This document shows, one piece after another, positions 27,787 through 28,301 of a stretch of DNA of 35,936 nt. The position numbers were made by a program, and so were the translations under genes. The stretch's first letter is position 1. Each line of letters opens with the position of its first letter. The stretch covers positions 1-35,936 of the forward strand of contig REBY01000104.1 of assembly GCA_007692485.1 (NCBI GenBank). The letters run 5' to 3'. Origin of the DNA: Pseudomonadaceae bacterium (GTDB lineage: Bacteria; Pseudomonadota; Gammaproteobacteria; Pseudomonadales; Pseudomonadaceae). The notes under the pieces are model-generated. The model did not search any database. It saw nothing but the letters and a program-made list of their open reading frames with translations, and was not told where the DNA came from.

Positions 27787-27825
27787 ACCGATATGCTAAT
27801 CGATAGGCCGCTGGCGGTCATGAAC

Positions 27826-27858
27826 AAAAAAAGCGGTTCACCCAGTCGGGGAACCGCC
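27826..27858 (-). terminator. Strong Rho-independent terminator after the 40-aa ORF
   Basis: Minus strand GCGGTTC-CCC-GACT-GGG-T-GAACCGC-TTTTTTT. Confidence 0.88.
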
Positions 27859-27893
27859 AAAGGCCTTGCGAGCCATGCCTGGGAGAAAATCAA

Positions 27894-28016
27894 TCAGCCT
27901 TTTTTCTTGTCCGCTTTATGGCTGTCATTCCAAATGAAGTAGCCGACGCCGCCCAGAAAGGCGACCATCAGGCCTACAGTGAGAATGCCGGCAACGACGA
28001 CTGTGTCCATGTACAT
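27894..28016 (-). CDS. 40-aa single-TM peptide resembling CcoM (accessory subunit of cbb3 cytochrome oxidase); not in the ORF track
   Basis: Translation MYMDTVVVAGILTVGLMVAFLGGVGYFIWNDSHKADKKKG*; GGAG Shine-Dalgarno 8 nt upstream of the ATG; one TM helix with lysine-rich tail. Confidence 0.75.
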   Translation of the reverse strand: MYMDTVVVAGILTVGLMVAFLGGVGYFIWNDSHKADKKKG

Positions 28017-28080
28017 GATGATGACTCCTCTGGGTCAGTAAGCAATGACTACAGAGTACCCACAGTCGACGGCGGGTTTA

Positions 28081-28094
28081 TTGACAATAATCAA
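28081..28094 (-). promoter_or_regulatory. ANR/FNR box
   Basis: Minus strand TTGATTATTGTCAA, compared with TTGAT-N4-ATCAA (9/10 conserved positions); 22 nt further downstream a TACTCT sits where a class II -10 element would be. Confidence 0.72.
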
Positions 28095-28106: not shown

Positions 28107-28301
28107 TTACTTCTTTTTTCGCGGGGATTTGCTTTTCTTGCTCTTTTTCTTGCCCGCTGCTGGTTTTCGCCCAGGCAACGGCAATGCCTGCTCGAATGCC
28201 TGACGCATCCGCTGCAAGCGGGCTTCGTTCAGGTCATGCTGGCGTTGCTGGCGGGCCAGATCAAGGTCAACCAGATTGTCAGGGGCTTTATCATCGCTCA
28301 T
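28107..28301 (-). CDS. Small hypothetical protein with lysine-rich tail
   Basis: 64 aa MSDDKAPDNLVDLDLARQQRQHDLNEARLQRMRQAFEQALPLPGRKPAAGKKKSKKSKSPRKKK; fills the gap in tandem with the next ORF. Confidence 0.7.
   Translation of the reverse strand: MSDDKAPDNLVDLDLARQQRQHDLNEARLQRMRQAFEQALPLPGRKPAAGKKKSKKSKSPRKKK

Follow-up and report, generated by a model that had tools for sequence, protein, structure and literature searches.

The minus strand at positions 27826-28094 of the window (the whole stretch of 35,936 nt that was analysed) raises two questions: whether an ANR-controlled RNA of the PhrS type is encoded there, and what such an RNA and its small ORF would do in a genome from which pqsR, the target described for PhrS, might be missing. 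PhrS is among the best studied small RNAs of Pseudomonas, and its ANR-dependent expression and binding to Hfq have been documented in P. aeruginosa (PMC8395346, PMC6890931). The source genome (G000) is a 2.8-Mb MAG, ∼94% complete, from the genus containing Halopseudomonas yangmingensis. We put at about 85% the probability that the locus is a bifunctional phrS orthologue, combining an ANR-driven mRNA for the oxidase subunit CcoM with a 3' Hfq-type pairing module whose creg element has changed.

The phrS locus and its predicted transcript

The Rfam PhrS covariance model (RF01673) matched positions 27824-28052 (minus strand) end to end (model positions 1-212), with a score of 88.2 bits against a gathering threshold of 37 bits and an E-value of 8e-20 in the window. 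The original prediction had proposed orthology with PhrS and named this search as one of its checks. It had also pointed to a neighbourhood of rapA and small ORFs, and the same arrangement was found beside phrS of P. aeruginosa PA7, including a 64-aa ORF. The corresponding 64-aa ORF here (28107-28301, minus strand) lies upstream of and outside the transcript, and serves as a synteny marker that adjoins ccoM in 80/80 named Pseudomonadaceae loci, 72 of which also have RapA no more than 2.5 kb away. It is lysine-rich, and no Pfam or NCBIfam family matched it. Because the covariance model, the homology of the internal ORF, the promoter geometry and the synteny with rapA and the 64-aa ORF agree, the locus is confirmed as the Halopseudomonas version of phrS.

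The promoter consists of an ANR/FNR box (TTGATTATTGTCAA; 28081-28094, minus strand) with 9/10 consensus bases in class II position, and a -10 element, TACTCT (28053-28058, minus strand), which is conserved throughout the genus at the box-aligned position: across 36 Halopseudomonas genomes aligned on the box, TA.TCT was present at 100/100/./75/97/100%, with the consensus TATTCT. The centre of the box lies 41.5 nt upstream of position 28046, and in PA7 (G128, NC_009656) the Rfam model likewise begins 41.5 nt from the box centre. This equal spacing supports a start near 28046 and a predicted transcript of ∼221 nt up to the last T (27826-28046, minus strand), in line with the ∼220 nt first proposed. 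Within it follow a Shine-Dalgarno sequence, GAGGAG (28025-28030), the 40-aa ORF (27894-28016), the creg pairing element (27859-27878) and an intrinsic terminator with a U-run (27826-27858), all on the minus strand; box, -10 element, Shine-Dalgarno sequence, ORF and terminator each stand where they had originally been placed.

The terminator (stem 27858-27833, T-run 27832-27826, minus strand) is absent from the list produced by a mechanical terminator scan, though it is evident from the fold of the 3' 71 nt and from the Rfam alignment, and with its U-run it is, by analogy, a likely Hfq site. Folding of the full-length predicted transcript was no better than that of shuffles (z -0.46). A protein of the ANR type with the cysteine-rich start CKDCSLAAMC is encoded in the genome beside HemN-like and apt-like genes. 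A second FNR-type regulator (L038, G000:C67; 264 bits) was also seen. We infer that the RNA here depends on ANR and binds Hfq, since both properties are known in P. aeruginosa.

The small ORF and CcoM

The 40-aa ORF matched the NCBIfam family NF041600, 'cytochrome c oxidase subunit CcoM', over the full model (positions 1-34/34) with 74.8 bits, where the equivalog cut-off is 40 bits, and PDB entry 5djq_N with an E-value of 1.4e-13 over residues 1-35, of which 24/35 were identical by our count. We take 5DJQ to be the structure of a cbb3 oxidase that contains CcoM as chain N; in the PDB file this chain is labelled merely 'putative uncharacterized protein'. Work by Kohlstaedt from 2016 reportedly found CcoM physically present in the oxidase complex of Stutzerimonas stutzeri. 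In PA7 the CcoM match falls inside the PhrS match, at the same place, and the PhrS ORF of that strain (MFIDEVVLAGILTVGLMVAFFGGVGYFIWKDSHSRKG, 37 aa) is a homologue of the 40-aa ORF. On this sequence evidence, the PhrS small protein is CcoM, a single-helix subunit of the cbb3 oxidase.

The published lengths are 37 aa for the PhrS ORF (PMC6700203) and 36 aa for the cbb3 subunit identified as CcoM in P. stutzeri (as cited in PMC10433244), and the function of the PhrS small protein was listed as 'currently unknown' in 2021 (PMC8672173). Among the listed open-access papers matching both names, none joined PhrS with CcoM, and priority is thus not certain. The identification goes beyond the original prediction, which had suggested a peptide-coding ancestral role, a suggestion that is now strongly supported with the peptide named.

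Constraint on the ORF acts at the level of the protein. Among 36 Halopseudomonas loci the median dN/dS was 0.13, with synonymous divergence averaging 0.69 per site, and among 70 other Pseudomonadaceae loci the median was 0.15. A chance ORF was ruled out by the value of 0.13. This constraint also bears on a different view, that the locus is foremost a regulatory RNA, to which the ORF contributes structurally or by being translated, without yielding a working protein. Such a view would accommodate the existence of PhrS RNAs that have no ORF, as well as the report from P. aeruginosa PA14 that the PhrS ORF, although conserved, has by itself no effect on CRISPR regulation (PMC6700203). We nevertheless regard it as very improbable in the face of a low dN/dS at near-saturated synonymous sites, the match to a subunit of a cbb3 oxidase of known structure, and the occurrence of ccoM without creg throughout the order.

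This wider distribution was apparent in both the gene and its promoter. CcoM was found in 272/299 Pseudomonadaceae genomes, with PhrS over its cut-off in 277/299, and in 78/296 Pseudomonadales genomes, mostly from other families. An ANR box with ≤2 mismatches preceded 90/90 Pseudomonadaceae ccoM loci, compared with 85/1,800 shuffles, and 47/48 ccoM loci from other families of the order; ANR-boxed ccoM is an order-wide module of the Pseudomonadales. Two CcoM-like ORFs ∼4.8 kb apart were noted in one genome (L042 and L064, G262), and each genome of family f29, outside the Pseudomonadaceae (G422, G467, G506, G525, G544), had two CcoM-like matches, the second of them weak.

The gene ccoN was present in 7/7 CcoM-positive genomes tested and missing from 11/19 genomes without CcoM. 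The remaining 8/19 have ccoN, which indicates that CcoM is not obligatory for cbb3; together with two genomes (G101 and G115) that carry a divergent ORF and no ccoN, they show that the link between CcoM and the oxidase is not strict. In the source genome ccoN (775 bits) is followed by ccoO and ccoP. Just upstream of this ccoN lies a degenerate ANR-like site (L031; TTGACATGCGTCAT, 3 mismatches), followed at about class II spacing by CATACT, and weak control shared with ccoM may be possible.

The creg element and its separate history

The 3' half of the transcript has a narrower range than its 5' half. Downstream of the stop codon, an exact copy of the creg core, CGCAAGGC, was present in 66/70 Pseudomonadaceae loci other than those of Halopseudomonas, and in 0/48 ccoM loci from other families, in which mismatch counts were similar to those of shuffles; among the Pseudomonadales loci compared, the combination of creg and terminator was not seen beyond the Pseudomonadaceae. 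At the present locus the core is kept and 10/14 bases are the same as in P. aeruginosa, while 4/14 are different. The resulting 20-nt Halopseudomonas form, GCATGGCTCGCAAGGCCTTT, is carried by 27/36 genomes of the genus at 97.3% mean pairwise identity. In these 27 genomes synonymous sites of ccoM are near saturation, the linker before creg varies from ∼17 to 81 nt and terminator stems differ between genomes. A creg fixed amid such variable surroundings suggests that the pairing sequence was replaced and re-fixed and did not decay. A lack of conservation outside the ORF would have spoken against the original prediction; box, -10 element and creg are all conserved beyond it. By this separate conservation, the RNA role appears to be real too, with a pairing element specific to Halopseudomonas.

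The two halves have also been lost separately. In 9/36 Halopseudomonas genomes (L072, L078-L081, L158, L159, L162, L165) creg and terminator are gone, with ccoM and its box kept and a ccoM dN/dS of ∼0.06. A ccoM tree, which is weak (42 columns), requires two changes for this loss without ruling out one, so that one or two events may be involved. At these loci the transcript may run into the downstream gene.

The converse state was seen in RNAs that lack CcoM and keep box, -10 region, creg and terminator at a predicted length of 68-105 nt. They occur in genus g6 (L119, L121, L123, L124, L125 and L126 in G006, G024, G037, G049, G061 and G069), genus g15 (L114, L116 and L120 in G055, G260 and G271) and genus g3 (L118 in G002, with a weak ANR box of 3 mismatches). 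Those of the RNAs that were folded had a 5' hairpin, different from one lineage to the next, followed by a mostly unpaired creg and by the terminator. The genomes G055, G260 and G271 still have the upstream ORF, which indicates that ccoM was lost in place, and ccoN was not found in the g6 genomes tested. In genus g11 (L113, L117, L131) CcoM-like ORFs are shortened to ∼22 aa with creg and terminator intact. One genome of this genus (G011) apparently has two such shortened-ORF copies in tandem. The locus thus comprises two modules with different histories, 5' ccoM and 3' creg, each lost separately in relatives.

These patterns allow us to weigh the possibility that the transcript is in this lineage nothing but a ccoM mRNA, its 3' element merely surrounding the terminator or surviving as a relic of a PhrS in decay, and playing no part in base pairing. 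Creg-less ccoM is the rule outside Pseudomonadaceae and occurs in the nine Halopseudomonas genomes above, and neither PqsR in this genome nor a conserved perfect target of creg was found, all of which would fit. However, a 20-nt element 97.3% identical over 27 genomes despite a variable linker and stem weakens this account, because decay would not fix a single new sequence, and relatives without the ORF have retained exactly the part from creg to terminator. We consider it distinctly unlikely and continue to favour a bifunctional RNA.

What the changed creg would pair with was approached from pqsR and from its own complement. A PqsR query, verified against PDB 7qa0 (735.8 bits, 332/332 residues), gave no match at E 1e-50 in the ∼94% complete source genome, in accordance with the earlier suspicion that pqsR is missing, and PqsR was present in only 3/299 Pseudomonadaceae genomes. 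As PhrS is present in 277/299, the pqsR role is not the general one, and quorum sensing as a general function of PhrS was ruled out on the same figures. In the PA7 record the pqsR match (L036, G128:C1:4524217-4525210) is divided between two neighbouring reading frames, with the junction near residue 232, and the gene appears frameshifted in that record. Two PqsR-like proteins, 83% (L034; G020, probably Pseudomonas mangiferae) and 75% (L035; G001) identical to P. aeruginosa PqsR, belong to a different Pseudomonadaceae genus, g2.

The changed sequence of creg points to targets that are probably its own or adjusted, pqsR excluded. Searches of 37 Halopseudomonas genomes for the exact complement, GGCCTTGCGAG, gave approximately the control hit rate once phrS itself was set aside; such clusters as the hits formed were small, and the largest of them seems to lie within a coding region in antisense orientation. 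Duplex prediction between P. aeruginosa creg and pqsR leaders could not be distinguished from shuffles (z -1.2, PA7). As this missed a known pairing, the method was dropped, leaving the inference of targets without computational support.

A proposed respiratory role for both halves

Based on these observations, we propose that at low oxygen ANR would bind the box at -41.5 and switch on the ∼221-nt RNA. Its 5' part would serve as mRNA for CcoM, a one-helix protein expected to join and stabilise the high-affinity cbb3 oxidase. The 3' part, creg with the terminator, would act as a base-pairing module of the Hfq type, presumably added to ccoM in the ancestor of the Pseudomonadaceae, and the changed creg of Halopseudomonas may pair with mRNAs other than pqsR.

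A more specific form of the bifunctional reading holds that the halves make up an oxidase switch, with CcoM supporting cbb3 and creg repressing mRNAs of lower-affinity oxidases. In P. aeruginosa PhrS lowers cyoAB, encoding the bo3 oxidase, according to a review citing Sonnleitner 2011 (PMC12101431). ANR would govern both halves, and creg has outlived pqsR and even cbb3. However, no bo3 oxidase was identified in the source genome, where cbb3, an aa3-type and one further haem-copper oxidase were seen, and this refinement is somewhat unlikely to be correct as it stands.

On a broader scale, we tentatively suggest, at a little under even odds, that PhrS came about when, in the ancestor of the Pseudomonadaceae, a 3' pairing module was joined to a ccoM mRNA driven by ANR. 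It would then be an ancient respiratory switch, combining an oxidase subunit with an RNA that controls competing respiration, and the part it plays in quorum sensing by way of pqsR would be late and local; several lineages would have swapped the ORF for a short 5' hairpin, and one Halopseudomonas group would have dropped the RNA module. PhrS and CcoM were both known; the point here is that both are one gene with separately evolving halves, of which the variant part is a genus-specific creg. With its protein named as CcoM, PhrS becomes linked to respiration under oxygen limitation, which induces this RNA. Furthermore, deletion of phrS removes an oxidase subunit, so that deletion phenotypes may partly reflect the loss of CcoM. 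Loss of modules in both directions provides natural experiments, with RNA without protein in some relatives and protein without RNA in others.

Compared with P. aeruginosa PhrS, the locus has in common the covariance match, a class II ANR box, an ORF of 37-40 aa, the creg core CGCAAGGC, the terminator, and the adjoining 64-aa ORF and rapA. It differs in the creg flanks (TGGCTCGCAAGGCC here, GAGCACGCAAGGCA there), the Halopseudomonas form being nearly fixed (27/36 genomes), and in that PqsR was not found in this genome, so the activation of pqsR translation described for PhrS in P. aeruginosa is not expected here; with no PqsR match in 296/299 Pseudomonadaceae genomes, that function is also unsuited to defining the PhrS family. 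CcoM of Stutzerimonas (Pseudomonas) stutzeri ZoBell (5DJQ chain N) shares 24/35 residues and belongs to the same length class, but the open-access papers that mention CcoM describe an oxidase subunit gene, without a link to PhrS. SgrS/SgrT and VcdRP likewise unite a small-protein ORF and a separate base-pairing region in a single transcript; unlike in those systems, the protein here forms part of the structure of a membrane enzyme, and related genomes have lost the two modules independently of each other.
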